This document shows, piece after piece, positions 23,367-64,000 of a DNA stretch of 64,000 bases; the first letter of the stretch is position 1; each line of letters starts with the position of its first letter. Both the position numbers and the translations under genes were made by a program. Location of the stretch: positions 930,001 through 994,000 of the forward strand of contig JAMZAV010000151.1 in the NCBI GenBank assembly GCA_024449915.1, given 5' to 3'. This DNA comes from Sweltsa coloradensis. Taxonomy: Eukaryota > Arthropoda > Insecta > Plecoptera > Chloroperlidae. The notes under the pieces are model-generated. The model made no database searches. It saw nothing but the letters and a program-made list of their open reading frames with translations, and was not told where the DNA came from.

Positions 23367-26300
23367 ACGTCCTTCGTCTCTTGCTTGCAGGTGGAAAGGC
23401 AGCACTTGGAAACTGCTGTGGATAAACCTGGTCGTGTTTGTTGCTTTGGTCGCTGCCATCACCATCCTACGTGTATACATTCTCAGTGAAGCACATCAAG
23501 AGTAAGTGAAATGTATAATTAGTGCCTATTTGTAGCCTCAATTTTAACGTAAACGCCCACTTGAAAGTTGGACCATGCAGCACACCATTGCTGTAGGTAG
23601 GCCTACATTGAAGTTGACGTATTTCCACAATCGTCAAATTCAATGTTTTTCTTAGTAGGCCTACGTACGTAGGCCTCAGTGTTGTTCGTCAGTTGTGTTG
23701 ACTTTCAAGATGCCTACTTTATTACCTACCTATTCAGTCTATTATAAAGGCCTAATGTTTATATACGACTTACTTGGGTTACGTACAAAGGCCTACATAT
23801 CTACATTGGGGACAACGGGACGTGGCACAAACCATCACATTATACTAAAATAACTCAATTAACGTATAATGACAGACGTTAAGCATTCGTCACATATAAA
23901 CCATCGTTCTTGTTTCTTTGCGTAGGAATTTTCAAAAGATAGCTAACAGAATGAAAAGGGACAAAGAAATGATTCCCATGGCCTTTATTCTTGGATTTTA
24001 CGTGAACCTCGTGATCACAAGATGGTGGAGTCAATACATGAAGATGCCCTGGCCCGACGGCATGGCCATGTACATCAGCACCCTGATATACGGCCAGGAC
24101 GACCGGGGCCGGCTAATCCGCCGGACGCTGATCCGGTACTGCAACCTGGCCTTGGTGCTGGTACTGCGCCTGTTCAGCACGCAGATCAAGAGGAGGTTCC
24201 CGACCTACGACCACATGGTGGAAGCCGGCCTGCTACAGGTGTCCGAGCAGCGCATCATAGAGGAGCTGGATCACAAGTCGAAACACCCCAAGTACTGGAT
24301 GCCCCTGGTGTGGGCAGCGAGCATCATCGTCAAGGCCAGGAAGGAGGGGAGGGTCAGGGATGATTTCTCCATGAAGACGCTTGTGGATGCAGTGAATACC
24401 TTCCGTGGTGCATGCGGGGGTATGATCGACTACAACTGGATATGCATACCGCTCGTCTACACGCAAGTGAGGGACGGAACTATAGGCTAGTTGGTACAGC
24501 ACAGTAGGGGTTAGGGAGAATCCTAGACATGGAAACTCGCCATCCAATGAATTGTCCGCAATTTTGGTGAAATCTATACATAAAAACTGAGAGTATACAT
24601 TTTTGTATTTGTAATTATAATTAAGAAAACTAGTATGAGGGGTGTTTATGACAAACTTGTAGTAGGCTTACATTCAATTCTCATAAAACAGTAACTCGTC
24701 AGTAGCTCACTTTATCGTGATGAATGTGATAAAATTGAATGGCTCGAATGCCTGATACCATTCTTCGTCATGCAGTCAATTTCTGTAAGAGGAACTATTG
24801 GATCTCTCGTAATGAGATACGTTGATTTAATCTTATTTTTAAGTATTAGGTTATTCTACAGAGTGCACATTTCCGTAAGATTAAAGGAGTGGGTTTCAAC
24901 GGTAGAAACTATGCGTGTCGATCCTTGCAGTCGTAAAACAGAAAGAAAGTTACATCGTACCCGGCACCTCCACCAAAATTGTAGAACTTTATTTTACATT
25001 GAGGCAGCATTAAGTTTTTAACTTACATTCTTTTTCATCGGTAGCAATCTCAAATTATTACTCTTTATAGCAATGAACGTAGAAACAGTGGCGTGCATAC
25101 CAATAGATCCACTAAGTGCAAAGTACAATAACACAGCATGCTATACTTTCTGGTTAGCCATCTCTATCACAATAGTAGTGGGTACTTCAATAGAGTAGGC
25201 CTTTTGTTTATCAATATATTATATTAATTTTGTATATTATTATAATTTTATTATGTAATTTATTGTAGAATATTTCTCTAAAAAATGAAAGGAGGCTTCC
25301 AAAATCAGAACGTATTAGATGGGTACCATGAAGCCTACATTTATGTATAACGCATAAAGGGGAGGAGTATATTGTTAGAATAACGAAGCCTGATTGATCA
25401 ATGACTTGTTTCTTGAGTCAGCGTGAAATATAACCATCATGTTTGTTGTAGGTTGTCACTCTTGCTGTGTATACTTTCATCGTCACTGCGATAGTTGGAT
25501 CGCAGGCTAACGTCGATCCTCATGACACACATTCAATCTATATACCGGTATTCTCATTCATGCAAGTAAGTATTGGCAACCATGTTTTTTTGGACTCTGA
25601 AATACTAAATATAAAATAGTGGGTAATATATTCTGGGAAATGTGATTAGTTTTCATAAGTTGAAATCTTCTTCAACGCAGCTTTTCTTCTATATGGGCTG
25701 GCTCAAGGTCGCAGAGACCCTTGTCAATCCATGGGGTGACGACGATGACGACTTTGAAGTAAACTGGATGGTGGACAGACATTTACAGGTAGGACTAAGC
25801 GTGATATTATCCACAGGCAAATATTTATAATTTTATTTCAAATTATTATATATCCTTTACATCTCTAGCATACCAAACTATAGAAAATAATGTTGGATTT
25901 TGGAATTGCATAGTTTTTGTGTTGATAACAATATCATCATCATTATCCATCGCCGTTTCCTGCTTCTGGCAGGGTCAGCTTGGGTTAAGCAACCACATTT
26001 TTTCACTTCTTTCTATCTTCTCATAATCGTATCTCTTCCACATCTTCCCAACTATCTCCTCTTGCCTCTTGCAATAACAAAAAAATACCTATTATTACCA
26101 TGCCTGAGCTAGCAAGCCGGTGTAAATAAACGTCGTGTACTCGAAAAACCGAACCAAACTGTCTTTGAAACACGACACATCGGATTACATCGGGAAGTAA
26201 TATATGGATTCGGTTTCAGACCATCTCGAACTTGAGTTTATCTTTTTCTTTGTGTTTGTCGTTTATGGTGTTTTTTATTTGATTTTGTTTTTATAATCTT

Positions 26301-35016: not shown

Positions 35017-36380
35017 TTAATTTGGGGAAGATTTTACGGCAGGATCTCTGCCATGAGGATCCTGTGATGATGCGTATAGCTCGTTTTTGGAGTAAAAGAC
35101 ACGATTAGCTTGTGGTGACATACCCCAGAATAGAAGCCCGTATGAGATGTGCGAGTGGATGTGGGCATGATATATTAATTTCAATATGTGGCTGCTAACA
35201 ATTGGCTTCATCCTCCTGAGCATAAAACACCCACTATTTATTTTGGAGCATACTCTTTCGATATGAGCAGACCAATCAGGTTCTCCGAGAGTGTAATGCT
35301 AAGAAATTTCACGTTGTCAGCTCTCATAATGTTTTTGCCATCAATGCGAATTAGGGGACTACTCTGAGGGGGGCTAGAGGTGGAGTGGAAGTTAAGGTAC
35401 ACAGTTTTGGTTGGTGGAAGGGAGAGAAGGTTATTTTTACAGTATTCCGACATTGCGTTTGCTTGGACATTTGAGTTATGTATGAGTTCTGCAAGCCCAT
35501 CTCTGGTTGCAGTTAAGAGGTGACTTGAGTCATCTACAAATTGCGTCAGTATGCCTACGTCAAATGTGTTGGGCATGTCGTTTACATAAAGTAAGAAGAA
35601 TGGGGGCCCTAGGACCGTTCCTTGGGGCACACCACAGACAAGTTTAAGGGGTCGGAGTGAAATTTAGTAATTGTATCATTTTCATCGATATCATCAAGTT
35701 CTACTACCTGGAAACGGTCTGATAGAAATGATGCAATCCATCTATTGGCTATACCTCTGATACCTAGATATTCCAGTTTTGAGAGAAGTATACTATGGTC
35801 AATTGTATCAAACGCCTTACTCAAGTCGTAGAATATTCCAATAGCCAGGTCGCCATGATCGAGTGCCTTGTAAAGTGCAGATAGGAATGAGAAGATGGCA
35901 CTTATGGTTGATTTGCCCTTTGGAAACCGTGTTGATTGCTTGCAAGAATATTGTGTTTGAAAGGAAGGATGACAGACGGAGTACATGATTTTTTCGAAAA
36001 CTTTAGAGAAAGATGAGGTTAAGGAAATTGGCCTATAATTGTTAGGATCTCGGTTGTTACCTTTGTGCTTATATATGGGTATTACTTTGGCCTCTTTGAG
36101 CTTGGAGGGGAAGGTCCCTGTGCAAAAGGAGGAATTGATGATAAATGCTAGTGGGTGAGATATAATACTTCCACATTTTGCAAGAACAGATCCAGGAACA
36201 TTGTCTAAGCCTGCAGAATGTTTGTTATTCAGTGTTTTGATGATATCGGCTACTTCATGATGGGTGGTTGGATGGAGAAAAATTGAATTAATTTCCTGCT
36301 TATTCTCGATGATACCAGGAATGAGGTGATTGGTTTGTGTCTGAGGTCGACTGTTTATACCAGCATTGATAAAGAACTCA
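35017..36380 (-). pseudogene. LINE ORF2 reverse transcriptase, frameshifted
   Basis: Fingers and palm are recognisable: KSTISAIFSFLSALYKALDH, YDLSKAFDTIDHSILLSKL (motif A), IASFLSDRFQ, PQGTVLGPPFFLLYVNDMP (motif B) and FVDDSSHL (active-site FVDD in place of YADD). Thumb: IYHAHIHSHISYGLLFWG. The frame changes near 35620 and after 35240, so no full protein can be made. The clade is CR1/L2-like by motif style; this is an inference. Confidence 0.85.
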
Positions 36381-36381
36381 T

Positions 36382-37566
36382 TTAGATGATTTGATATACT
36401 TTTGGGTCAGAGTTTGGAATTCCGCTAATGTTGATCGTAAGTTGATTTTTAGGACTAGGGGCCTTAGTTTGAGCATTGATAATCTGCCATGTAGCTTTCG
36501 ATATGTTATTTGCAGAAGATATAACCTGATCATGATGTTGTCGTTTAGCTTGTCTGATGTTAAGTGCATGACCTTTTTTTAATGTACGATACTCATGTTT
36601 AAGTTGATGGTCGTTGGGTAATGTTTTGCAATGGTAGTGTAATCGTCGCAGTTGTTGGCCCTCTGCTTTATGGCTGTTTGATAACCACGAACTAGGGTTT
36701 TTTTGCTTTTGCCTTTGCCTAACCAAGGGGAATGCTGTGTTAAAATAATGTAAGAAGATCATTAAGAATTGGTTGAACATCTGGTTGGTATCGGTCATAG
36801 TCAGCAAGTCAGACCATTCTTCACTACTAAGTAAATTTATAAAGTGATTTGTATTGCGTTTGCTAAATATTCTAGAGAAACCCCAAGTGGGAGAGGCATT
36901 TATGGGCGAACTGAGTTGCATGGTTATGGCACAATGGTCTGAGATGTGTGGGTGAAGGGTATTTGTTTTGTAAAGGGAAGGGTCTAGAGAGGTTATGATG
37001 TTGTCGATAAGTGACTGACTTGACCCAAGTGTACGGGTGGGTGTTAGAATTGTTTCGTGTAAGTTAAATGAGTGTATAAGATCAAGGAATAGGTCGCGGG
37101 CTCGTGATTTGGAAAGAAGATCAATATTAAAGTCGCCGCATAGGGCTATTTTTGCCTTAGGGAATCGTTTTGTGACGTTTATAAGGGTCTCTTCTAGTTT
37201 ATCTAAGAATATTGAGAGTTTGCCTAATGGAGATCTGTATATGGACAGTATGGTGATGCGGCAGTATGGTAGATGCCAAAGGCAACCAGTACATTCAAAA
37301 TCCAATTCAGAGCAGATTGACTCTAGGCCTAGTATTGGCTCTATGTTTAGGTGTGGTTTAGAGAGGATTGCTACCCCACCATGTAGATTATTAGATCTAG
37401 CATAAATTGTAATGTTTGCATATCCTGGCATGCAGAATTTAGTACTAGATGCGGGGGTGAGCCAATGTTCTGAGATACAAATAACTTCGGGAGATTGACT
37501 CTGAAAGAATTGTTCGAGTTCCTCCATTTTGTTGTTGACCGATCTAACATTAAGTGCAAGTATCAT
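36382..37566 (-). pseudogene. LINE ORF2 endonuclease domain (intact 394-codon frame)
   Basis: An APE-type endonuclease that would nick target DNA to prime reverse transcription. Visible motifs: LNVRSVNNK (Asn), ICISEHWL (metal-binding Glu), ILSIYRSPLG, LCGDFNIDLL (Asp/Asn) and ISDHCAITM (catalytic His). A linker leads toward the RT. The frame is open throughout, better preserved than the RT, which is broken; it is part of the element at 33661-38280 and not a host gene. Confidence 0.88.
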
Positions 37567-38280
37567 AGGATTATGAGTTAATAATATTTTGGGATTTGGA
37601 GATGTCTTGTTGGTCTTAGAAGAAAGGGATGGTTGGGGGGCGGAGGTAGATGCTCTGGAGCTGGGGGATTTAGCAGTTTTTACATTGTTGTGAAGGCTAG
37701 GGATTGGTTTGGTTTTAAATTTTGGTGTGTTTGTGGAAATGGTTTGAATTCCACTGAAAGAAGAAGATTGATTTTGTTTAACGTGGGGTGTTTTGTTAAC
37801 TGTGTTTTTATCAGTATCGATAAAGACATTATGGCTTGGTTTGTAAAACTAGTCAACTAGGTCTAGATTTGGATTTTTTACTTGTGTTTTTAGATGTCTT
37901 TAAATGAAGAGGAGGAGATCTAACATTTAAGAAGGCCACCATTCGGTTTGCTGACGGCTGCCGCGCTAATTTTTGTCCGGTGGGTCAAAACTATACCCGG
38001 ACTTTACCAAAAACAATAGCATGCTGGCAACCTATTTCTAGGACTCGACCTACGTTTTCATATATTTTTCTAAAGAACAACACATTTTTTTGTAGGAAAC
38101 CAAGGTCCTCTAAATCTCCACGCACTTACCGAAGGTCTGCTTTGAGATTCAGTAGACCTGGGAGGATCTCTCGCCGAAGAAAACTCTTTAATCTATTCTA
38201 TTCAAATATCGGTAATCTTTTTTGTATTGAGGTATACGGTAATATTTTTATTAATTTAGCATTATAAAGGACTCACGACT

Positions 38281-38802: not shown

Positions 38803-41800
38803 GTAAGCTTGTCCAGCTCAAGTTCTTGCTGGAGATATTTCAGCCAGGCTGTCTTGACTTTTAGAGGTTATTGTTAGCCTGTTAGGCCTTCTACAAAGGC
38901 TCGCATAGGCCTAGGGCCTAGGCACTAGAGCTAGGACTAGCCTTTGTGTAGGCCTAACCTAAACATCTGCTTGGGCTATCCTAGGGTCTAGGCCTATTTA
39001 ATTTACTAGGATAACGACAAAGTTGGCTAAGGATTAGACTCTGACTTCTTAGCTAGGCTTAGCTTAGGCCCTAGGCCTAGGGGCCTGGCTGTGGCGGCTT
39101 TGTGTATCCAATCCCTGAGGTTACATCCTGCCTCTAGGGCCTAGGCCTAGGGCTAGTCATTAGGGCCTTGCTAGGCCTAGCCTAGCCTTAGCATAGTGAG
39201 CCTATATGCTCACTATGCTCATCCAATGTAAGTAAGTAAGTAAGTTTTATTTCCATACACATAGCATATTACATTATAACACTTTGTGATGACCTCTAGG
39301 TTTATATTGACTACGTATTACAGGACGTCCAAAGCGGTTTGTTCAAAACGCTTTGAAAGGAATCGGGTGGAAATACGCACCGTATAGCCGTATATCAAAC
39401 AACCCAAACTGATTTCTAGTTTCAAAGTGGATCCAACATGGCTGCACTACAGGCCAGCCATAACCTCTTCGTCATAGAATTAATAATTATCTTCTACTAG
39501 CTTTGACGTCGCAAGGTTGAAAATTCAAAGGAAGTGAGCGAAACGGAAGCCTTTACTGCCAATGCTTGAAAAACAAACAACAGATCGCAGGAGGTGGCGA
39601 GATGGCGTGGGCGTGGCGTACGGAACCGCTTTGAAGTGTATATCAGGTTCAAACCTTCGGATCGAATACTCCAATTCGCTTCCCTAAAGTGAATTGGATC
39701 GGAATCGCTTTGGGTCAAATTCGATTTGTATATCAGACTCGGCAATCGTTTTGAACCAAAGTGCATTCGTTTAATGCGAATTAAACCTGCTGTAATACGT
39801 AGTCATTGTCTGGAATAGTATTTATTAAATTTTTCCTAAACAAATAAAATTTTTTATTGAGGTGTTTGGAAAGGTGCAAAGTATGCAATTGGGAGATATT
39901 CCCTCACAATTATTTCTGTCCTAAAATAAGTTACTTAATAATTAATGCCTAAGTCTTGTTTGTACATATCATAACAATTTTACTGTATGCTTATGTTGGC
40001 TATTTATTGAATTTTAGTGCCTCGTATATAAGAGAATACGAATGAAACGAGAGAATAATTATTTATCTAGTTTTTCTTGTGGCCGAGATTGGTTTCAATT
40101 TAAGGCAGTATACATCAAGCGGTTTAGGGCCTATGACAAAGATAAGACATAAGAGACTAAAAATACAAACAATATTAATATAATACTCCGACTTAAATGA
40201 TCTAGATAAATAAGACAAAATATAAGTCAAAATTTAAGATACAACACAAAGAAATGGGCCTATTATAAAATATATCTTAACCTATTTGTGGAATATAAAC
40301 ATAATAATCATAGTACACTATATCTATACCTAACCTCTTATTAAGAATTTTAGTAGAAAGATAACAGTGTTATAGTAGTTTGTCCTTCAAAAATTCCTCA
40401 ACAGAGTAATATGCTTTGTTACATAGAAGTTGTTTTAGTTTGTATTTAAAATTGCTCATACTAGAAATGGCTTTTAGACTTGTCGGCAGCTTGTTTAAAT
40501 AATTTAGAACTAATATAATTCGAGTTTAGTTGAGAATGTGTTCGCTTGAGATAATTAGTGTGTATGTTGTTTGCTTGTCTTGTGTTATGGCTGTGAATGC
40601 TATTATTCTTGTCAATTTCTTCATTAATCATAGATTTTTTTAAATTTAGTATGGATTGAAATATGTATAGACTGTAGAAAGTGAGTACGTATTTTGTGTT
40701 TGATGAAGTGTGGCTTACAGTGAGGTTTAATGTAAGAATTTTTCTTTTGTTTTTGTTTGTGTTGTTTATTTATTTATTTATTTATTATCCTTGCAAACAT
40801 GTGGTTACATGGTGGCAAGTTCCTAAAATTAACATTTTAAAATTGTACAAAAATATAACATTCACATTCATTTTCTTCATATCTTATATTACATCTAAGA
40901 CACCATCATCAAAGCAACATCAAACATCAATGAAATCAAATCTACATCAGATCCAAATCAATATCCTCCAAACACCTTCTAAACATTTTTACCGAGGATT
41001 CCTCAACAGCTGCTGCTGGCAATTGATTCCATTCTACAATTGTTCTATTTAAAAAAGACCACTTCCCAACATCCTTCTTTTTTAGTTACATTTCAATTTC
41101 AGGTCATGGTCTTTCCTCCCTTTGTATAATCCTTTTTCAATTTTATTGCTTATCTCATTCCATCCCTGTATTCCATTCATAGCACGAAACAGGTTGCACA
41201 GCCTGTTTCTCCCTCTCCGTAATTTTAAAGAATCCCATCCTAAACCTTCTATCATTTCATTTACACTGTCATACGTTCTTATCCTCCTTCCCTTGGAATC
41301 AGTTACCCATCTCCACCTTTTGACCTTCCCAGTTACTCTCCTTGCTGCTAATCTCTGTACTTTGTTTAGGGCTTTGATATGACCGTCCTTATAAGGGTCC
41401 CATTTAGCACTTGCATATTCCAATATTGGTCTTATAAGAGATTTATATGCTTTATCCTTAATTTTTGTGTGAACCCCTTGTAGCTGCCTCATTACAAAAT
41501 TTAGAGCTTGTATTGACTTTTTACTTACATATTCCACATGATGCCCCCAATCCAAATTGTTATCTATGAACACTCCCAAGTATTTGTAATTGATGACAAC
41601 ATCTAGTGTTTTTACCACACAGCTTATAGTTTTTTTCCGCTTTTTTCTTTGCTCTATTAAATGAAATAACCTTACATTTACTCACATTTAAACCCAATTT
41701 ATTTATATCTACCCATTTTTTCAATTACTGTTAAATCTTCTTTAATTATAAGAACATCTTCATCTTCCTTTATTTCCCTATATAACACCCCATCATCTGC

Positions 41801-44800
41801 AAAAATTCGAATTTTGGATTTTATTCCTACTTGTATGTCATCTTTAAATATAATAAACAAATTTGGTCCTAACACACTGCCTTGAGGTACTCCTGAAGTT
41901 ACTTTAATCTCTTCAGAAATTACTTTTCCCACTCTGACTCTTTGAGTTCTATTTCTCAGAAATTCCCCAACCCAGTTCACAATTTTATTATTTCTTATTT
42001 TGTTTCCAAATTTCTCCATTAAAAGCTTATGAGTTACTTTATCAAATGCTTTTTGAAAATCTATAAATATTGCATCAATCCTACCATTATTATCAAGTGT
42101 GTCAGCTATGTCCTGAGTAAACCTGTTATCTGAGTTTCACAAGAATAACCCTTTCCCGGAACCATGTTGTGTACTCCTGATAATCCTTCTCAATCTTCAA
42201 TAATGTTCTTAATCTTCACATCCATAATCCTCTCCATTATTTTACACACTAAAAACGTATGACTGACAGGTCTATAATTACCTAGTCGTCCCTTCACCTT
42301 TATAAATTGGAACAACTATTGCTTGTTTCCACTGATCTGGCAGTTTTCCCTGATTTATAGATGTCTGAAATAATTTCTTGAAGTATGGCACTATTCCCCA
42401 TCCAGCTGCTTTAATAAATATATTAGTTATTCCATCTGGCCCTGGAGATTTATTTTATTAAGTTTTCTAATAACACTAATGATATCATTATCAGTTATCA
42501 CTACCTCACTATCATCCCAATCATTATTTTTACTTTCATATCCCCCAATACCTTCAGGTGGAAAACTTTCCCATAGTATTGATTAAGGGAGCCTCCGCCT
42601 TCTCACTGTCCGTTATAAAATTCGTTTCTATTTTCATCAACTAATGTGGGCAAATCTACATGTCTCTTTTGGCTATTTACATATTTATACATACTATTCC
42701 AACTTTCTTGCCGGTTTTGTTCATTAAACATACTCTCCAAATATTTATTCTTTGCATCCTTCTTTAATTTATCAAATTTGATTCCTTAGCTCCCTTTATT
42801 TTATTCTTGACTAACCCTGAATTCCGCTTTTTATTATAAGTTTTCTTATTTTTATTTTTAATCTCTTAACTTTTTTAGTATAAAAATCGGATCATTATTT
42901 AATTTAATAACTCTCTTTGGTACCAGTTTTCTCTCAATTCATGACAATTTTAACAAATGTATTCCATATATATCCAAATCATGCCATTCATCTTCATTCC
43001 AACTATCAAATCGTTTTTCCCAAATTCCCTTTTAATAGCTTTTTTATCAGCTTTATAATAATTCCATTTAATTTCTGCCTCCAATCTACAACTTTTACCA
43101 AACTCCACTCCAATTTCTACAATAGGCACCTTGTGATCACTTATTCCGTCGATTATTTCCGTCCTTATCCACATAGAATCAGGACGAAGCAACACGACAT
43201 CTAAAATATTATCTAATCCATGTTTGCTTAGTCTCGTACCAAGTTCAACTGTTTGAGTAAACCCTTCTTCCATTATTTCCGATATTATTTCTTGTTTCTT
43301 TCCACCACTTATGGTACCAGCTTCCCATATTACTTGTGGCAAATTTAAGTCCCCAGCTATAATACAATTTTGGTACATACTAATCTGCTTGACTCTTTCT
43401 CTCAGATTCTCTAGACATTCCAAACCTCCGTTTGGTGGGCGATAAATAGCTATTAGGTTGACAATTAAATTACTCCCTAATCGTAATCTCATACACATCA
43501 TTTCATGTAAATCATCAACCCATTTAATGACTCCTTCAACTCCATTCTTAAGTCCAATCATTATCCCTCCCCCATGTCTATTTCTATCTCTTCTATGCAG
43601 AATGTATTTATCAATTGACAGCTCGCTGTTGAGGAATCCTTGATCCAACCAAGTTTCAGAAACCCACTACTACTGAAGGTTGATAAACCTCCAATAAAGT
43701 TCGAAAACTTTCAATTTTGTTGCATATACTGCGGCAATTGACTACCATTACAGTGAAACCTATTACATTAGCATGTATGGCAGATTCAAAAATATGTCTG
43801 ATACCAATATTCATGCTCATCTTTCCACTAATTTTGAATAGCCGAATCATAATTTTTATAATTTTTTATAAAAAGTCACAGTATTTGGAATCTGATTGCT
43901 ATCATGTAACACTTCTGTAATGGTATTAAAGTGACCACTCATTCAATCAGTTTCCGATTGTACATCTCCGCTCACAGATTGCCCCTGCATTCTTTGTACT
44001 AAGCCCACATACATATCAGTTAGTACATCACAACCTCTGAAGTTAGGGTGAAGGCCATCCTTCCCTAAACAATCGTTTTTCATCCAGAAGTTAGGGTCTA
44101 CAAAAACACCACCTAGTTCCTCCACTACCAATTCAATTTCATCATTTAACTTATTAATATCATCTATACTCATGTCAGATCTTTGTACTATTCCCACCAT
44201 TCCGAGCTTGAACGTGGGTATTTTTGTTTTAATACATTTAAAAGGTCCCAGGTTTTTACTTATAACATTATTTTTTACCCCAGCCCCTTATACTTTTTGT
44301 CCCTACATGACATATGACATTTGGGAAAGTTGTCTACAATATTGTTGCAATGCTGATTCTTTATCATGTTCGTCATTTGATCCATCCTTATCCCCGGTCT
44401 ACAATCAACAATCCACTTTTCCTCTCTTTTTCTAGCAATCTTCTGTATGTTGTATAACATTGAATCACCTAAAATCAGGTATCTTTTTTTCTCAGTAAAC
44501 TTCCTTTCTCCTAATGTATGTGTATCACACAAGCCTTCAGTTGGTACAGAGTGTATATTATTTATAACTCTACTCCAGTTATAAATCTTAATTGTAATAC
44601 CTGTACTATCAAAAACACGATAAATTAATTGCTTTACCTGCATCCACTTGAGTTTGTCCCAACCGCAGCCGATTTTTGGCATGGCGATTTCCAAAATACC
44701 TTTACTTATACAATAATCCTTCATTGCAGTTAGACACTTGTACATAATGTGAAGGCTCGGCTTATCTTTTCTTGTCAATTTTGTTAATAAGGTAAAAGAT

Positions 44801-47800
44801 AGGAGTACTCCTAACATCTTCAAGTACAGCAATATCACCCACCATCTTGTTTTGGCGAAGAAGTTCTTCTTTCTTCCCAATCTTGTGGTTGATGGATGCA
44901 GCTAATCCCCTGGACATAACGAAATCTTCACCCACACAGAGTGCCAATGCTGTTTTCTCTTCAGCGACCCAAAAAGTCTCCCTGCGTCATTGAATTACGG
45001 TATCACATCTAGTCTTCATTGTCACTGTCTTCTTGTCACTTTTATGTTTAGCAGATAGACCTGCTAGACCCATCATCCTTGGCCCTTCTTCTTGTTGCCT
45101 ATTGGTACCTTGTTGCTCATGGTCAGTCTGTAGTCCCATCCTCACTTTGTCATTGTGGCTAGGTCTAATTGTCTCTCCTTTATGTCTTCACACATATTAG
45201 TGAGCCTATTTTCTAGTATTTTTTCTCTCCTTCTGTTCCTCTTCTAAATCTTCTCCGAAACTCAACAGTCCTATTTTTGTGTTCCCAACTTCCTTTTCTA
45301 AAGAGGAATACGCTTTTTCTAGGTCAAGCTGGATGTTCACCACTTCCGTAGTACAATCTTCCACCACACCTTTCATCCTACTATACACTCTATCCATCAC
45401 ACCGGCTTTCCTTCTTCACAATTCGTCGCTGTTTCTAGCCTCGCTACCTTTCATTCAATTGCTGTATATTAATGTTCATCCTATTTATTGTACGCAGCGC
45501 AACTTTTAACTGTTTCGAACTAAAACAGCAGTTCATCATTCGACTACTGTGTTTTTTTCTCTTCTTCTGAGCTAGTAGGGCTACCTTTCCCATCTTCTTA
45601 CATACTTGCTTGTCTGTCTTTATGCCTGGCTCTTGTGCTAGTCCTAGATGTGTCGATGTATCGGCTATCCCCTCACTGTTTACGTTTAGTTCAATGTTTA
45701 GCCCCGTCTAGACACAAACCCAAAACTGGTGACTTTTCATCGTATACCGGTAGCCCTACTTCAGCTGAGCTTAAGGCTAGTCCTAGGCTTAGGCTTGACA
45801 CTGTACTTGCTATGCCCTTATTTATTTCAATGCCTAGACTCTTGTCTAGCTCACTTTCACAAACCACACCACCAATTACATTTATTCTCTCGACTATACT
45901 CCTTCTTGTTTACTCCTGCACATTTGAAATGTCTCCAAATGGCACACAAAGTACACTGGACACCGTACCGGTACCTAACTTCTTTTCCACACTCCGAACA
46001 CTTACAAATTCCATTTTTTTTATTTGACACTTCTAAAACTGTCTTCAAAATCACCATCCTTGTCAGCCATCGGTCTAATCTGGTCTAATCCAGACTTAAA
46101 AAAGCAGTGTATCTTAAGTTGGCAATTGAACTAGAAGACCTTCTCTCTTCCCAAAATTCTTGGAGCCTTGCTCACTCAATTGTTTCAAATATTTTGTTTT
46201 ATTCATGCAAACAGCTAAATTTCTCAAAATACTTTTTTTTTAAATCTCTCGTAGTTATCACACCTATTCATAGAAACTGAAGATAAACGATAGTATCAAT
46301 TAAACTTACAAATCTTCATATTCTGGTCACGAAATTATCCCACAGCACAATGTAGAACTCAAAATAAGTCATTTTTAAACATCCTAAAATCAAATTTAAA
46401 ACTCACACAACTCACAATACACAATAAATTGTTGTGGTTAGGCTTAGGCCTACTCCCGCCTACATTCATAATTCACTTGCCTGCCACATAATTGCCAACA
46501 AAATTTAGTTTGAAGCCCAGTCTGTTACTAGGCTGATCCAGGCCTAAATTGTCAAGTTCAGAAAAAATGTTTATTCTCAAGAAAAATACATTCTTGACTT
46601 GATAGCCTAAGCCTACATCTAGGACGTTTCTGAATACTGCCAAATCTTAGGTCTTGGTCTTGATTTACGTTGTAATACGTCACGAACTATGTCACCCATG
46701 ATGTATGATGTCACAAGTGCGTGCACACGATCAAGACTTAACAAATCAAGTAGGCCCTAATAAAAATAGTCTAAGAATCAAAAGTGCACACTAGATTCAG
46801 GTCTAGAACATGGCGGACATTATTAACATGTGTTTACATTTAACGTTTCCATACGGTACCAAATTTGATTCTGTTTTATTTATTATAATAAATCCTACCT
46901 ACATTTAATAACTTAGGCCTATTTGGTTACTCAACGTGATTTGGAAGTGTTTTGTTTCGATCATCTCCCGAAGTCGCTAGGCCTATGTTTAGTAATAAGA
47001 ATGAGATTGAGTGTGGTATTTTCAACGAGCCTAGATCAAGTAATAAGACCTAGTAATAGGCCCTTAGACCAAGAACAGTTAGGGTTGCCAACACGTCCGG
47101 AATTTTTCCGGACAGTCCTGATTTTGATGGCCTGTGTCCGGGAAAAAGGAATTGCCTCATCCGGACGGCACTTTGTCCGGAATTTGTGAAAAAGTCATAT
47201 TTTACTTTCATTTATTGAATTTTAGAGTATTGCAGTGAATTAGTGTTTTTTTCTCTCTAAAGTTGGTACATCAGTTGGGTTTTGGGAAATTTTGGGAAAA
47301 AAAGTTAGTTTTTTTCATGTAGCCGCCTTTTCGTAGTCCTACTCCTAGCTAGTCGTGCTCGTGACCTCTATGCTCGTGACTGCCTGTCCACTACCCCTCC
47401 CTAACCCCTTGTATTGTATGCGCACTTTGGGGAGGCGCAGGGCTACAACATGAGATTTCAGTTTAGATTAGTCCGTTGTTAGCGACCGTGGCCAGACGTG
47501 TCGGCACTGAACGTACAGTGAGGCGATTTTCCTGTGCTTTCTGTCGGATTGTTGCATCGTGAATGGAACTGGTAGGCAATTCGCCTCCCAAAAAGAATAA
47601 TTAAAAATTGGATATATCCAAGTCATTGAATCTTTAAATTACGTATCCGGCTGTTTTGAAGGTTAAAAGGGCCAAAAAATTTTCGCCTCCGCCGGCTGGG
47701 GCTTCGCCCCAGAACCCTTGTGTGCCCACTAAAATTCGAGATTTGTCCGGAATTCTAGTTGACCCAAGTTGGTAACCCTAAGAACAGTAGGCCTATTTAG

Positions 47801-50109
47801 ATTTTTAAACTTTAAACTAAACTAAAGGACTAGCCTAAGTTACAAATAATACCTAATAATAATAATAATAATAATACGGTAATAATAATAATAATAATAA
47901 TAATAATCATAACTCAGTTCCAACTATGTCGGGTTGAGTAGTGGTTTTCCACCATTATTAGGGCATGCAACTGTAGTAGGGCTAAGCTTGCCAGACTCGG
48001 CCCGTATTTTTAAAAGTCCAGTTAAAGTGGCAAGTAAATTTAACGACACTAACTTGTTTTCACTATGGCAACCACCAATCAAAAGCTTTTAAATATTTAG
48101 ACAGGACTAACTGGCAGATAAAATTTTAAAATAGACATTGAAATTTGGACCAGTGTTTGTTCCCATGTTTCCCCAAAATTTTTGCCCTCTCCCTCTCTTC
48201 TGTCCCCCCCAACTTAACTCTTGCCACATGCTCCCACACTTATCCGTTTTTTCCAAGTCCTTTTTAATTAATCTTTCCATTTTTCTTTGGCCTTCAAACT
48301 CTTTTTTTTTCCCCCTCTTGCGCTTAAATTCTTGTCTTAGAATCCCCCTCTCTGCCCATCCTTCTCATATGTCCGAACCATCTTTTGACTTTCTTTTCCC
48401 ACGTAAACCTCAATCTCTTTTCCCCCTTCCCTTTTTTGATTAATTACTTCTTTCTTCTCCTCTTTGTTGTAACTCCCTTGAACCCCTTTTTAAAAACTTC
48501 ATTTCTGCTACTTCCACGACTCTCTTCTTTTGTTCTCACTCCCATGTTTCTGCCCCTACGTTTTTAGCGCCTACCTGGTAAAAATATGCCTTGTACAGCA
48601 AAATTTTAAATTTTTGTGGGAACAACTCATTCCAGAGTACCTACTAGCTTTCTCACCAATTGACGTCTTGAAATGTACCCGCCTCCTGACGTCACGAGGC
48701 AACATGGCGGAATGAATGGGTATAAATCCTCATTTCCCAAGTTGCCGCCTGCTTCACGGCGCAACACTTATCACGCTCTAACTTTTATTCTATTCATTAT
48801 TTGGACAATATTTAAATGAATAATATTTAGCAAATATAGGCCTATCATTCATTGTAATAGTGATTATTTCGATTTTTTGACAGTGTCGTTAGCTTGTTAT
48901 AACAATGTACGGATCATAGATGTGAAAATTATCAGTGACTTAAGTTTTCTCAACAATTTATTTGACAAAAAACTACTGATCGGATTTCGACAAGACCTCT
49001 TTAAAAATATGCATCAGACTGTTTAAACAAGAAATAAACTAACTTTCTAGATAGAAAGTGCACTGAGCAAAACTTTGAAGCATAGAGTAATATGCAGGGT
49101 AGGTATGTGTTTTTATCTAAAATACGCACTCTTGACGTGCGGATGAGCCGTGAAAAAGTGTACGCTGCGTATTATTCTATGCTGTAAATTTTCGTTCAGT
49201 GCACTTTCTATCTAGAAAGTTAGTATATTTCTTGTCTAAACAGTCTGATGCATTTTTACAAAGAATTCTTGTCCGAAATCCGATCAGTAGTTTTTTGTCA
49301 AATAAATTGTTGAAAAAACTTAAGTCATTGATAATTTTCACACGTGTGATGCGTAGGCCTACATTGTTATAACCAGCTAACGACTGTGTCAAAAAAATCG
49401 AAGTAATCACTATTACAAGGAATGATATATTTGCTAAATATTATTCATTTAAGTATTGTTCAATTAATAATGAATAGAATAAAAGTTAGGGCATGATAAG
49501 TGATGCGCCGTTCAGCAGGCGCCAACTTGCGAAATGAGGATTTATACCCAATACTAGTCACGTGACCTATCGATCATCTTAAGCTTCACCCATTTTGAGT
49601 CGTCAATTGGTAAAACCCTTCTGCATTTTGCACTCTAGAGTCTAGATACTTCCCTACCCACTTTTGCATCGTTTGTCAATATACTTCCCAAATATTTAAA
49701 TTCTTCTTTTTCTTTTTAGACTTCTCCACGGAGTACAATATTTTCCCGATCTCTAGGCCTGCACTTTGTCTTCTTTTGCATATGCAAACATTCACTCATT
49801 TTCTGATTGGTTTTCAGACCAAACTCTGTAGGCCTTGTAACTTCATTCCATCTGTCCACCTTCTCCTGCACTTCTCTGGCACTCTCACCCCAAATCAACA
49901 CATCGTCCTCAAACACTAAGGTTCTTGTGTCCCACTCCCTTCCATCTGTATTTGGTTCCACTCTTCTTACAATTTCGTCCATTACAACAGTAAAGAGTGT
50001 TGGAGATTCTGACCTACTCTTATCTGTCTGTACGCAACTTTCACTCCTTTGATACATACTTTGTATCCTGTCTATTAAACCTCTTCCAACTCCTTTTATT
50101 TCAAGACAC

Positions 50110-54600: not shown

Positions 54601-57600
54601 ATGATCACTGACTTTAGTTGTATATACAACTGATTTGAGAGTCAGGTCAATACCTCGAACGTAAATATGATCTAAACATGTACTATTAAGCCGGTCGTGT
54701 ACTATCTCCTCCCTTGTCGGTTTTGTGATGCATTGGATAAAACCATTCTGCTAGCATTTACTGATACAGTTGAACTTTATCATCATGGTTATCAAGTGTG
54801 TTAATGTTGATGTCCCCCAAATATATACAGTATTGTTATTGTTTTCCTTTTTCCCGTAGGTTTCTATTGCGTTTATATAATCTGACTTTGTGATATAGTT
54901 GGGCGGTCTGTAAACGCCTAGCAAGGTTACATTTTCGTTTCCTACAAATAGTTCCCCTAAAATACCCTCAAAATTACAAAATATAACTTCTTCTCTCTTA
55001 AACGTTAATTTATTACTTACATATAAAATTAATCCGCCACCTCTTTTTAAGGTTCTTAATTTAAAAAAAACAATTATACGGGTCATTCTCAAACGTAATG
55101 GCCATATTGAAAAAATGCTTGCAAGAAAAAATTATAACATAAAATTGGATGCCTCCTTTAAAAGTACATTATCCAATAATTTGTTCTTACAGCCCTAAAA
55201 AGGGTTTATCTAAAAACAAAAATTTTTACATACAAGCATTTTAATCAATCCAAGTGTACGAAAAGGTCATAACTGTTACCGGACATAAAAGTGACAATTG
55301 ATGTAAGAAGTTATTTATTAAATCTATATTCATGTGCACAATAGTTTTAGTTTCATTATCACACAAAAATAATACATTCAATAAAATATACATTTTTATT
55401 TTAATCACTTTTTATAATACCAAAAAGTCAAGAAAGTTACTCAAATTTCAAAACCTGGTAATTAACTTACTAATAATGGACAAATGGCAAATCAAATTTT
55501 ATCAAGATCACTGTTAGCAATGAAGTATTAATATTATAAATAAGATTAAAAATGTGATTCAGTTATTTTAAACTTTAAATAAGACTTAATTTAATAATTA
55601 GCTCGGGTAACGGTGTTGACAAAAAGTAACAGTCTTGACAAAAAAGTTACTTTTCTAACAGTAATTACATTTTTCCAAGATCATGTTGCTTGTTAGTGTA
55701 CAAATCAGTCAACCTAAAGATAAAATCCATCTAATCCAACAAGTTTGTGTTGAGTTTAAAGTAAAGAGACACTACGGGTAACGGTCTTGACAAAAAGTAA
55801 CATTCTTGACAAGTGATCACTGAAAATCAATAAAAACAAGTGTTTTGTTACTTTTGAGTATGGCAATGAATTACAACCTCTCCCTTCAAAACACATCTAC
55901 AGTTGCAGGAAATTAATGCAGTAATCCACGATGCCCTTGTAATGTTACTTTTTGAAAGTAAACATACCTGACAAGTAACATGCATGACATTTCAACTTCA
56001 TTAATTCATTAGCTGTTAACAATCCCATTTGAAAAAGTAGGGTTATGTTGCTATGAGCTGGAACTTGATTGTAACTTAACTCAATTGTTAAATAAATATT
56101 AAATACAAATTAAATTGTTTTATCTTGGTAACATTCATGACATTGAATTAAAATACTCACCGTTAAAATGTTTACTTTTCAATTTTAAAGAGTTCTCATG
56201 TCAAAACAAACCAAACTTCCATGATGCCATGTCAGGAGCTGTTCTTCTTCTTCTTCTAGATTGATCCACTGCCTTCTTGAAAAATTATTTAAACTCTTTT
56301 ACAATGGTAACAGTCATGACATTATTATGATTGCCACATTAGGGACAAACACTTTCCACTAGTTATTGTTTGAAAATGTAAATTGTTAAAAAAAGTCACT
56401 AACACACAGTTATTAACTGTTATTTCTGCATTAATTCCAATCTAGAGACTAAATAAATTTTAGTCTTAAAGTCAAACATTTTACAAAAACACTTCTGGTT
56501 TTGAGGATAGGGACATGGGTTTTAAACACATTTTGCAATACCCGACATTGAATTAAAGGTCAAGCTTACAAGATAGAAGTGCAAAAATTCATGGAGCTAA
56601 TAAAAACTATAAGTATTCTGAAAATGTACAACCAAAATTTATGCAAATCAATATCTTGATCTAAAAAAAAAATAATATTAAGGTGGGACAGCACAAGGGT
56701 CATTTTATTTGAGAATGACCCATACCCTTCTAAATGAAATAATACATTTTCTTCTAATAAATTTACTTCACTAAGTAGTACAACATGAAATTGTTGTATG
56801 TTATCATGTAGAATAACCTGCAACTCGTCCCAGTGTTTTTGGATAGACCGTATGTTTACATGCAATGCACTGATACCGCTAATGTTTGTTTCACACCAGC
56901 CGTTTAGATCGTCTGTAGATTCACATAAAACGTCTTCAAAGTCATCTTGTAATGTATGCATGCAAACGATTTAGTTATTTTAATTGATCAATTTGATCAA
57001 CTGTTTTGATCTTAATCACGTGGGGCGTATCTTCGTCTTTTCGAGCAAATATACATCCGTTCCGGTACCAAACAAACTTGTGTCTCGTTGCTTTAGCCTG
57101 TTGCTTCACTAGCCAAAATAAGTTCCGATAGTAAGGAGAGAGGTGTTCGTTTATGAAGATGGTCAGGTCATCCTTTCTTAATACATTCTGAAGGATGTTG
57201 CTATTTTTAATAGAAATATTTTTCTTAGCAATCAAGAACTCTTCTCTTTTTTTACGGGACACAAGCTGTGCTACTACCTTAGGGGGGTAATCCTTGTTTC
57301 TGGATGGAACTCTATGCACAGCTTCTATATCCGAACTCTCGAGTCGTATTTCCAGATGATTAGCAATACCTATCACTATACTTTCAATGTCTTCGTTTTC
57401 CTGTTGTATAATGTTAGATATCTCCAAGTTCTTGTTTCTTCCGTATTGATCGAGTTGTTGTACTTGATTTGCTAATTCAGCTATAATCTTATCCTTTTCC
57501 TCCCCTTCATGAATTAAGTTTTGAATTGTTTCCTCGTTTTTAACCACCTTCCCTTGCAATTCTTTGATTAGTAATAACTCATTCTTCATTTCCTGAATGT

Positions 57601-57668
57601 CACTCTTCAGCTCATTTACTACTTTCAGTACTTCTTGTAGTGTCGCAACCTGCAACTCACCTTGACCT

Positions 57669-57734
<66 letters not shown>

Positions 57735-60700
57735 GTTTCATTTTAATTTACAGCTTATATCGAGCATCAACCCTGGCTGCAATGAGGTGCCGGTATGCAA
57801 TGGGACACAGAGTCCGTTCACAGTGATCCATGTCACTGCTGTTGGACCAAACGACACTCTCCATTACCTATGGGATTTTGAAGGGAAACCTTCGATACTT
57901 TTGGCGGTAACTTCACATTCAGCCAATCTCACCATTGACTGGGAGAAATTTCTTTGGGGAAAAGAGAGAGGTGTGAGATTTTCAGAAAAACCATTGTACA
58001 CATTCGGTATCATCTTAAATAAGGTATGGGTACCTACCTACCATAATTAAACATTATTCTTTGATAACATTGGTACTGGTATATATCTAGGCATATTGTT
58101 TCTAAAATTCATATCTCTGCTCTCAGTACTGTTTGTACCTACTGTAATGTAGCAGAGAATGTCTCACATAGACTACAAAGTCTATTGACCTGTAATTCTT
58201 ATTGATCTTCAATTCTCATTTCATTTACTCCTTCTTTGCCTTTTCTTTGAAAAGATATTTTCAAATTTATTTGACTAATTCGGTACAGGTATTCAATAAA
58301 GATATAAAATATTACGATTTAAATCTTGAAATCTTTGGTCCATCATGCAAAATTATGACAACAGTACGATGGGTCATTCTCCAGATTAGGGACAAAACGA
58401 AGATGAAAAAAAAATATTTAAAAGATTTTTTAAATTACATCTTTTGCACATTTACAGGTTCTCCTAATATTGCTTAAGTAACTCCTTATGCTAGCAGAGA
58501 TCAAAAATAGTACTGTTGAAAATCTCTTCCTGTCACAGAGTTTTTGCATGGAGAATTGAAGTGCAATAATAAAAACCAAATATTTATACAAAATAATAGA
58601 ATTCTAGTAATAAAGAATAAAGCACAATATAAGTTGAGACAGTTAAATCAGATTCTATAAACATGTAAAAACACAAAAAATCATCTCCGTGGACAAAATC
58701 AACTCCATGGTCCTGTTTTGGGCATGGAGCTGATGACCATGGAGCTGATAAAAGTGTGCATATTGCAATAAAAAAAATCTCAATTTTGAGGTTATGAACA
58801 TGTGCTTTTAAAGGTTAGTTTTTAACTCAATGGTATAGTTAAAAATACACTCCAATTAATGGTTTTTAATCAATCTCTACAATCTAATGATGTCATGGAG
58901 TTGATGATGAATAAATACACTCCCCCATTTATCCGGATGTTTTGAGTTATATAACACTTATAGCGTTCACAGTTCATGGAGCACCATACATGTAAATTCA
59001 TAATGGCAGCTATACCTTTACTTCCACTTCCTGTTTGGACTGACCTGCCACCTGGTGGGTTTTTATCGCAACTTAAAGGCATGGCCATGGAGCTGTTACA
59101 CTCCATGGGTGACCAACATTCGAATGCTTTAAAAGTCATTAAATATTTATTTGTTTGACATAATAACTTATTTAAAGTAACAAGTATATTATTTCAGTTA
59201 TTTAGGTATATAATATTATATTAACACATGATATCATTATTAAAATTATAAAAGAACTTGGAGAAATGCTACTGGGGACAGGCATGGAGCTAATGTTCAA
59301 GGCTTTAACTTTCAGTTTTTGTCATTATAAAATTATATATTCATATGTTCTATGAAAGGCCTATGGTCAAATAGTACACATTATTATTTGTTTTAAGGTG
59401 TAAAAATAAAATTCAAAATAAAAATTTTGAAGCATAATATTAGCCGAGGACACAATTTGTCCCTAATCTGGAGAACGACCCATATAAGGCCTATTATATT
59501 CCTTCTCTAACTGACTATGTTGTGTTCCAGATCTACGAGTATAATGACGTGAATAACACTGGAATCTTGGACTTCAACACTAGTTCTGTGATTGAACTTG
59601 ATACTAAAGAATTTTACTGGAAGAGGACTGCCTTTGTACAAGATGAAAAAAGTATTGTTCTAAAAATGGAAGGAACAAACTCTTCAAGAAACGGGTCATT
59701 GAAAATAATGGTATGCAGATGCTTAGTTGGCCTACCGTACTGAACTCTAAATCTTTTGCATAAATCAGATATAGGCCTACAGTGCATAGATGCATGCGTT
59801 CAAAGATGGTTTTATTTATTTATTTATTTGTTTGTTTTATTAGCCTGTTGATAGGTACATACATAGTACAAATATAGGCATCGTCACGTAATACTAAGCT
59901 AGATATAGGCTGATACAATAATAAAATAATAAGATATTTATTTACATAAATAGATAATGTTTGATCTAAGTAAATAGTACATAATTTTGTATATTGTACA
60001 TAGTACAGATATATACATTGTCAAGTACTGTTATACTTAAATAGATGTAGACTAATACAATGGTAGAATATTTAAATAGATATTATTAGGCCTACGAAAT
60101 TTTACATATTTACAAGAACCAGGGGAGGAACACTAGGTTTGACTGGGTGTATGGGTAAGATATTCCTGCAATGTATAGAAACTGTTTTCAACAAGGAAAG
60201 TTTTCAGGTTATGCTTGATGAGTAATCACGATGAGGAGGAAGCACTTTATCTGGGAGTTTGTATAGAGGATGGATGACAGGACTAGTGAGGGCCTTCAGA
60301 AATTAGGGATAGTATTGTGGGAGGAAGATGAATAAGCTTGGAGATCTAGTTCGGTGGCTATGTATCTGGATGTTTTGTATTAAAGGGGAATTTTGTTGGT
60401 TTGGCGAACAAAGGGTGCGGCAAAGTCTTTATTAGCAGGCCCAGTGAGCGTTTGAGCTCTACTTTTTGAAGAGAGTTGGCGACACGTGTGCCAGGGAGAC
60501 TAACTCAAATATTCGTATTATTCTTTTGAGGTAAAAAATTCTTTTGGTTGGGAATCGCACCCTAAAAGAGGATGCCATACGCTAGGTGGGAGTGAATGTG
60601 GGCAAAGTAAACAATTTTAAGAATTTCTGGTGTAATTATATATGACAATTGTCTGAGCATGTAACAGCCGCTAAGAATTTTGGAGTCTATCTATCATTGT

Positions 60701-62780: not shown

Positions 62781-64000
62781 GTAAGTCATTTAGTAAACCT
62801 TCTTATCAACAATGTCAGTTAAGAGAGAACAGGGCACACGTTGACAGTTGACAATAGCTACCTGTTCGCTCAGCCGGGAAGAATCCAATGTACGTTTGTG
62901 AAACTTTACATAAGTTATCAATAAAGCATGTACATGGACAGCCCTTTCAGTCGTAGATTATCAATATTTCATGTCAATCAGCCAGGATCAATCCACAAAT
63001 ATGGTAATTTTTTATTTTTTTTAACAAAATACAAAAATCATTTTTTTAAATTGATATTTAAAAGTTTTTTTTTTAAATTGTTTCTATAGAGTCCTATATT
63101 TCCACTTCTGTGACTACTACCTACCCAAAATTTCAAACATCTCTGTGTTGTCAGTCGGGCGAGCAAATAGGAATCTGCTTAAAACGCATGTCCTACTGTA
63201 TATCCTCTTAAGCTTACACTAGTCGAGGAAAGTCACTGCTCAATGTCCCAATCGAGCTATAGCCACCGAATGGGCAATATTTAATAAACTAACGCTCTCT
63301 AGAAATGTTTCTGTAAAATGTCCCCACACTAGTGATAGTAGGCAGGTCCCATAAGAAATCTAGCCATGTTTTGTATAGGCCTAGGTAGTAAATTTAGTTG
63401 TGCCTAAGGGAAGTATTTTTTATTTCCAGTCCAATTAAAAAATTAGATTTCCAGTTTTAATTGGATGCAGATCTAAAATGTAGGCCTATTCTTTTACCTG
63501 TTTTTAGTTTACTGTATGTGTATGTGACCTCGGGCTTATTTAAAAATATCAAGTTCAAAACGTGGGTTTTGGCCATTATTCAAAGCCATTTGTCATACTA
63601 TTGTGTTTATAACACATTGTTTAAAATCTTATTGACCAAAATAGTGGTGCGGCCATAACTCGATGGTGGCCTAAAATAGAGTAATACGGTAGTGGGGAGG
63701 ATGTTTTTAAAACATTTCATATACGTTTGGCCCGGAGAGCTTAAGCTTACCCCGGGACACCGTGCCAAATGATCAAACAGTGCTCATTGTTTTCATAGAA
63801 GAATTTGGCACGTTGTGGGTGAAGAATTCACACGTCCGGTCCACTACAATGACATACAAGTCAGGACCACGTACCCCCTGGACTGGTGGCAGGAGGCCCC
63901 AGAGCAAAGACAACTTTCACGAACGCCACTGGCTATCATTTTGGATAGCTAGGAAGAAAAATGATTGATGAATCAAGCTTTCGGCATAGGAGAAAGATAT
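62781..64000. other. GLMP intron 4 start and unresolved right edge
   Basis: No further GLMP exon is visible. 62781-63690 is AT-rich with nothing recognised. Near 63770-63955 two overlapping plus-strand frames exist; one reads WHVVGEEFTRPVHYNDIQ then TTYPLDWWQE, with a faint hAT-like PLDWW word. Neither frame fits the phase-0 splice from exon 4 using the nearby acceptor TTTTCATAG. I cannot identify it. Confidence 0.4.

Follow-up and report, generated by a model that had tools for sequence, protein, structure and literature searches.

A TARG1/OARD1-type macro domain within ORF1 of LINE retrotransposons of Sweltsa coloradensis

How does a macro domain resembling a cellular ADP-ribose hydrolase come to lie in a retrotransposon protein, and what would it do there? 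The question is raised by a decayed copy of a long interspersed nuclear element (LINE) in a stretch of 64,000 nucleotides of the plecopteran Sweltsa coloradensis (contig JAMZAV010000151.1, positions 930,001 to 994,000; hereafter the window), where it lies on the minus strand, approximately at 40777-46415, a span broader than the open reading frame 1 (ORF1) to which a first-pass annotation had been confined. Its ends were set by identity to copies on other contigs, which starts at 40777 (contig C587) and stops at 46365 (C587) or 46415 (C18). The window ORF1 is interrupted by frame slips and stops, and the ATG of ORF2 at 43942 follows directly upon the end of ORF1 at 43943. The features of the copy were assigned as follows:

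40777..46415 (approximate ends), minus strand: LINE copy, delimited by nucleotide identity with copies from other contigs
43943..46070, minus strand: ORF1, split over several frames, ATG at 46070; open 708-aa counterpart in another copy, L008
45857..46084, minus strand: frame with PHD-like zinc finger (Pfam PHD, 0.0007; profile A1, described below, against BPTF PHD 2ri7, 0.0016)
45206..45415, minus strand: predicted coiled coil in a charged stretch, from sequence pattern and the helix 122-212 in the AlphaFold2 model of protein P0001 (below)
44762..44986, minus strand: macro domain, N-terminal half, Lys84 equivalent in YLINK, from reading frames and the TARG1 structure match
44275..44901, minus strand: frame with the C-terminal half of the macro domain (Asp125 equivalent, GCGWD) and the N-terminal half of the SGNH esterase (ILGDSM)
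43943..44287, minus strand: SGNH esterase, C-terminal half, KDGLHPN (profile A1 against the ZfL2-1 ORF1 esterase 4c1b, 2.3e-13)
43767, minus strand: breakpoint base against the L026-type family, which has a similar ORF2 but another ORF1; identical in L026, L052 and L054
42950..43666, minus strand: ORF2, APE-type endonuclease (Pfam Exo_endo_phos_2, 2.9e-11)
41699..42136, minus strand: ORF2, reverse transcriptase (RT; Pfam RVT_1, 1.3e-14)
41082..41681, minus strand: ORF2 part 3' of the RT catalytic motifs, from reading frames

Because the window copy is decayed, its macro domain and its SGNH esterase are each spread over two frames, and since ORF1 is split in this way its pieces, taken singly, remained under the Pfam cut-offs (Macro at E 0.0062, 16.9 bits against a cut-off of 22; Lipase_GDSL_2 at 0.071; PHD at 0.0007, 20 bits against 24). 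All motifs named in the first-pass annotation were found on the minus strand in the order and place given there, with endonuclease and RT following ORF1. Just 3' of the element end, a minus-strand frame at 40461-40769 looks by eye like the C-terminus of an ORF2 from another LINE (HNTRQANNIH); this frame gave no Pfam match.

When both halves of the window macro domain were joined, with X at the slip, the product matched structures of human OARD1 (TARG1, C6orf130) at E 3.5e-25 and exceeded the Pfam Macro cut-off (23.1 bits against 22). Profile A1, made from six open ORF1 frames of which one, that of L027, lacks the N-terminus, matched TARG1 at 3.4e-58, the ORF1 esterase of zebrafish ZfL2-1 (4c1b) at 2.3e-13 and the PHD finger of BPTF (2ri7) at 0.0016. 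In the same six ORF1s Pfam listed, at E up to 0.01, Macro in all six, Lipase_GDSL_2 in four and PHD in three, the Macro score of L008 being 20.4 bits and so below the cut-off of 22. To assess the fold, the protein P0001, whose 595 aa show the architecture of the window ORF1, was modelled with AlphaFold2. Its macro domain (residues 241-380) has ten-residue block means of the predicted local distance difference test of 78 to 97, a single 91-residue helix (122-212) lies N-terminal to it, and the esterase part is poorly modelled. The top eight PDB matches of this model were all TARG1 (4j5q at 1.5e-15; 4j5s_C, which contains ADP-ribose, at 3.7e-15 with a template modelling score of 0.92 by target). 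The macro domain is of the TARG1/OARD1 type and, among solved structures, nearest to TARG1 in sequence and fold. This bears out the first-pass assignment, for which an absence of macro hits in profile searches would have counted as refutation. The TARG1 matches of the joined domain, of profile A1 and of the P0001 model rule out a chance similarity of motifs.

TARG1, a hydrolase of the ALC1-like class, is a free single-domain cellular enzyme, whereas here the domain forms part of the ORF1 of a retrotransposon; the likeness extends over fold, sequence (E 3.5e-25 to 3.4e-58) and the Lys84/Asp125 dyad. Of the same class is the macrodomain of the DarG antitoxin, the only NCBIfam family matched by the joined domain (5.7e-9; PDB 5m3e, 4.0e-9). 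A DarG-type domain was ruled out, as the match reached 35.7 bits against a family cut-off of 250 and both dyad residues are present in the LINE domains, whereas DarG keeps only the lysine (PMC7050489).

We then asked whether the domain belongs to the element. The genome (1.449 Gb, 16,871 contigs) was searched with the window piece covering macro domain and esterase, which gave at least 154 match rows, the window included, some places giving several rows (150 of 575 candidates scored). Forty-eight loci (L001-L048) were examined, L001 being the window copy, so that rows WIN and L001 represent one place; L009-L048 are 40 places picked from the match list for long open frames and a spread of identities, and counts over them consequently favour intact copies. 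L008 has a naturally open ORF1 of 708 aa with all four parts, and its ORF2 begins five bases further on. The order macro, SGNH, endonuclease, RT was complete in 18 of the 48 loci and consistent but shorter in 28 (12 with macro, SGNH and endonuclease, 13 with macro and SGNH, three with macro only), many of these having been fetched short. The other two were L015, which has an additional RT upstream, and L034, in which no endonuclease was recognised and whose contig is interrupted ahead of ORF2 by some 1.3 kb of inserted sequence. Forty-four places supplied 45 macro rows with 100 columns or more; clustered at 75% identity, these rows fell into 14 families whose representatives are 36-66% identical. 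A second search, with a scallop OARD1 (P0094), yielded at least 150 matches, all that were scored among 694 candidates; the frames holding them measure 138 to 1325 aa, and some of the matches were already among those of the first search. A protein search with the alignment of the six ORF1s returned P0001 alone, which was already known (7997 candidates scored). The macro domain thus belongs to the element, as the first-pass annotation had held: it recurs in many copies and many families at the same position. That an OARD1 retrocopy or exon had merely landed in one LINE copy has next to no probability, given at least 154 match rows, the same position in many families, the open 708-aa ORF1 and P0001, and is refuted by the other copies with the same architecture.

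The active sites were compared in P0001 and in those LINE macro domains that lie in one frame, 28 in number and representing 12 of the 14 families. Lys84, Asp125, Asp37 and Gly123 of TARG1 are each present in all 29 domains, whereas Ser35 occurs in only six. Lys84 and residue 125 form the catalytic dyad according to PMC7050489, where the latter is written Glu125 (the residue in the sequence being Asp). The aspartate of GCGxD, described in the first-pass annotation as kept, is therefore invariant, as is the lysine, and both are also present in every later row long enough to include these sites, 17 of 17 (several of these come from places counted before, and two further rows do not cover the sites). 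Among rows reaching each column, the SGNH residues are S in 43/43, G in 45/45, N in 44/44, D in 36/44 (Y in the other eight) and H in 44/44; with the match to 4c1b, this places ORF1 among the esterase-type (Type IV) proteins. The catalytic residues of the APE endonuclease are likewise kept (E 29/29, D 28/28, N 28/28, D 24/24, H 24/24, the window copy being entered at most twice), as are those of the RT xADD motif (A, D and D each 20/20) and the motif-A aspartate (16/17). With these two ORF2 enzymes and many dispersed copies in which ORF1 and ORF2 are collinear, the element has the marks of an APE-type non-LTR retrotransposon. Since the macro dyad is kept and the SGNH residues are largely kept, ORF1 likely carries two working enzymes, as judged from these residues. 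Macro domains can also be readers (PMC7050489) and the PHD finger, which the neighbouring motif resembles, is a reader fold, so that the domain might bind ADP-ribose only and tether the ribonucleoprotein (RNP) to breaks or marked chromatin; we regard this as improbable, as a pure reader would have no need of the two dyad residues kept in the 29 domains and 17 later rows.

Constraint on the domain was estimated from nonsynonymous (dN) and synonymous (dS) divergence by the Nei-Gojobori method in 23 pairs. Between some families the macro domain is under purifying selection: in the three pairs whose macro dS is high yet measurable, the dN/dS ratio is 0.18 for L020 and L023 (dS 1.31, dN 0.23), 0.18 for L027 and L028 (dS 1.69, dN 0.30) and 0.13 for L018 and L020 (dS 2.60, dN 0.35), values that are rough at dS above 1. 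In seven pairs dS was saturated, and the macro domains of L022 and L038 are without any difference. The window and L008 gave a ratio of 0.56, as expected because the window copy is decaying.

The domain was also met in other element architectures, one locus of each having been read. In L187 (G000:C1180), a LINE, the order within ORF1 is SGNH then macro, with the endonuclease frame next; this macro domain scored 20.1 bits in Pfam against the cut-off of 22 and 145 bits with the macro profile of the LINEs, and it matched scallop OARD1 at E 1.2e-31. L188 (G000:C14451), also a LINE, holds SGNH, macro and endonuclease within a single frame of 1039 aa, its macro domain matching TARG1 at 1.6e-33 and its SGNH part 4c1b at 0.0086; Pfam lists no Macro in it at E up to 0.01. 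L186 (G000:C7309:36300-40800) is a Ty3/gypsy-type Pol with RT, RNase H, macro and the zinc-binding and core domains of integrase, in which the macro domain takes up residues 441-574 of a 933-aa frame (Pfam 16.9 bits, under the cut-off; TARG1, 6.5e-28). A second LINE lies in the window at 35238-37848, minus strand, with endonuclease (6.4e-10) and RT frames, and its ORF2 resembles that of L187 by eye; the macro and SGNH profiles gave no match near it.

In order to trace the origin of the domain, phylogenetic trees were calculated. In an unrooted tree, 21 LINE macro domains were separated from 25 OARD1-type proteins by a single branch (support 97/94). For outgroups, scans of viral and prokaryote contigs were used, which had given matches to the macro part only (query residues 337-515; 80 of 84 loci kept, and 39 loci); 12 of those 119 loci entered the rooted tree and eight of the 12 the tree with other element types. 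Rooted on these 12 prokaryote or viral-contig macro domains, LINE and OARD1 rows formed one clade (100/99) within which 14 LINE macro domains were a clade (97/94). This agrees with the domain having been captured once, from an OARD1-type gene of a eukaryote. With the other element types added, support for the 14 LINE rows alone was 71/34 and for the main LINE group with three related rows 97/92, the pair with SGNH before macro lying deeper and the gypsy-type domain standing among the OARD1 rows on a long branch; approximately unbiased (AU) tests rejected neither a single origin of all element macro domains (p 0.39) nor one of all LINE macro domains (p 0.44). The capture of a host gene, as suggested in the first-pass annotation, thus stands in so far as the trees fit a eukaryotic OARD1-type source; the OARD1 gene of the host itself was not recognised with the scallop OARD1 query (150 of 694 candidates scored). 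Two candidates for it, on C8 and C718, both proved to be LINE copies, that on C8 rearranged and that on C718 of the L047 type.

The LINE lineages have exchanged ORF1. In the ORF2 tree, which contains two deep lineages, the window family groups with L026 (100/99), whereas ORF1, with L008 as an open copy of the same family filling row WIN, rejects the pairing of window and L026 (p-AU 0.0021), a test that was not blind because the pair had been chosen after the identities were seen. Conversely, ORF2 rejects a grouping of the window with L011 and L016 (p 7e-82). Copies on C1785, C4008 and C2713 have an ORF1 or esterase end of the L026 type and, following it, an ORF2 like that of the window (82-85% identical). 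Each of them aligns to the window from one and the same base onward, 43767, which lies 175 bases inside ORF2, and insertions are present in two of these copies. L014/L015 and L021/L022 have an ORF2 in common (83-85%), and their ORF1s gave a blastn match of only 202 bases at 68%; in L018 the N-terminus is close to the L014 family (73-80%) and the esterase close to the window copy (72%). Reticulate evolution of ORF1 is known for CR1/L2 elements (PMC4120745), and here it moves a macro-bearing ORF1. Separately, a 305-bp block of the macro part only is 98.4% identical between L011 (3253-3557) and L016 (3875-4179), two LINE copies that are otherwise very different; L016 may be a single chimeric copy, as it is without the N-terminal half of the macro domain.

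What the domain would do in the element is suggested by the chemistry of TARG1. We propose, at about even chances, that the ORF1 macro domain strips ADP-ribose from nicked target DNA, new complementary DNA (cDNA) or bound proteins during insertion. The ORF1 protein would be carried in the RNP to the insertion site, where nicking of the target by the LINE endonuclease would activate PARP1/2/3; these would tag DNA ends, single-stranded DNA and proteins, and removal of the tags by the macro domain would allow priming, cDNA synthesis and joining to continue. Such an eraser could reset ends and cDNA after a helpful PARP signal, or undo defence marks, and the same chemistry would be counter-defence if the host mark were aimed at the element. 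The kept dyad, the TARG1-like fold, the constraint between families and the spread over 14 families and three other element architectures speak for this reading. TARG1 reverses the thymidine-linked ADP-ribose that DarT makes on single-stranded DNA, K84A being dead (PMC8501950), and clears ADP-ribosylated DNA ends (PMC5725667) and telomeric DNA tagged by PARP1 (PMC11102865); PARP1 and PARP2 assemble at L1 integration nicks and assist via RPA (PMC8535693, citing Miyoshi 2019). Several points weigh against the proposal. As PARP1/2 help L1 integration, an eraser might hinder insertion (PMC8535693), and the model therefore needs the tags to be removed after the helpful signal. The substrates of domains of the TARG1 type can be proteins, DNA ends, RNA ends or O-acyl-ADP-ribose (PMC7050489), any of which may be that of the ORF1 macro domain. 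G41 of human TARG1 is not kept, with G in three of the 29 macro domains, and twelve recent pairs (dS under 0.12), with macro dN/dS from 0.09 to 1.61, hold little information on current constraint.

The presence of the macro domain beside an integrase as well as a LINE endonuclease agrees with a role in DNA joining, and its presence in both LINEs and a gypsy-type element agrees equally with protection of RNA or RNP, both kinds of element having an RNA stage. The domain might thus remove ADP-ribose placed by antiviral-type PARPs on element RNA or RNP proteins, as viral macrodomains do; this we consider unlikely, though worth weighing. L1 RNPs are bound and restricted by ZAP/PARP13, a known recruiter of further PARPs; overexpression of PARP1 gave no inhibition (PMC4441479). 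ADP-ribosylation of RNA ends is reversed by TARG1 (PMC6582358). The structure search with the P0001 model also found macro domains of viral proteins, and coronaviruses and alphaviruses resemble the LINEs as genetic parasites whose macrodomain is proposed to undo host ADP-ribosylation; theirs is part of an RNA virus polyprotein, and the chikungunya match was much weaker (3.3e-6). Moreover, coronavirus and alphavirus macrodomains belong to another macrodomain class, the MacroD type, and the TARG1 type of the LINE domain argues against an RNP counter-defence of that kind.

The zinc finger directs attention to chromatin. The first-pass annotation had described it as C4HC3 and PHD-like; in the window the Pfam PHD match (0.0007) stays under the cut-off, and the window family, with its CxCxxC spacing, shows the C4HC3 pattern in its loose form alone. 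A finger was present at 21 places (22 rows, since L001 is the window copy), 11 of them with the strict and 10 with the loose pattern. As the finger resembles histone-reading PHDs (profile A1 against BPTF, 0.0016), it might aim ORF1 at chromatin, where the macro domain would remove mono-ADP-ribose from repressors such as SIRT6-modified KAP1 and so reverse silencing. SIRT6 does repress L1 by mono-ADP-ribosylating KAP1 (PMC8535693). The linkage made by SIRT6 may, in turn, not be cleavable by TARG1. Together with the fact that KAP1 is vertebrate-type, this leaves the reversal of silencing with little probability.

Compared with known systems, the element resembles CR1/L2-type LINEs in having a PHD-like finger, a predicted coiled coil and an SGNH esterase in a reticulately evolving ORF1, followed by APE endonuclease and RT (PMC3905857, PMC4120745), and differs from them in the TARG1-type macro domain between coiled coil and esterase. 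The ORF1 parts given in the available text of these two papers are PHD, RRM, CCHC, coiled-coil, transposase-22, zinc-finger/leucine-zipper and esterase. Neither 'ADP-rib' nor any word starting in 'macro' occurs in the available text of Metcalfe and Casane 2014 (PMC4120745; 448 elements); that of Schneider 2013 (PMC3905857) lacks 'ADP-rib' and contains a single word starting in 'macro', its context not being visible. Likewise, rotifer long terminal repeat retrotransposons with captured ORFs (PMC5408684) show that enzymatic modules, including GDSL esterases, are common to retroelements, and words starting in 'macro' or 'ADP-rib' are absent from the text available for them. None of the titles and abstract openings compared describes a LINE or gypsy-type protein with a macro domain, Kapitonov and Jurka 2003 and Repbase lying outside this comparison; the view of the first-pass annotation that the domain is unusual for a LINE ORF1 agrees with the literature covered.

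Elsewhere in the window, a minus-strand frame at 56975-57742 ends in a Baculovirus FP domain 2 (3.5e-13) and is possibly another retrotransposon ORF1, and an RT-like fragment (49716-50108, minus strand; RVT_1 0.00014, below cut-off) adjoins a long TAA repeat. The plus strand carries pieces of a bestrophin (23900-24490; 9.8e-70) and of an NCU-G1-type lysosomal protein (62427-62822; 4.3e-24), both indicating an animal genome.

We tentatively suggest, at a little short of an even prospect, that unrelated retrotransposons, comprising several LINE lineages and a Ty3/gypsy-type element, took a TARG1-type eraser up into the proteins of their replication and trade it as a cassette because retrotransposition is generally impeded by ADP-ribosylation of nucleic acid, whether at the insertion site or in the RNP, and that a PARP-transposon arms race runs parallel to that between PARPs and viruses. 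The macro domain provides a clear marker by which the swapping of ORF1 between LINE lineages can be traced, and adds a further enzyme to the LINE ORF1 proteins, whose functions have long been debated. If the proposed role is true, one could test directly whether target-primed reverse transcription is limited by the ADP-ribosylation of nucleic acids, and ADP-ribosylation would be not a repair signal alone but a battleground between genome and transposon, to which the elements bring their own eraser.

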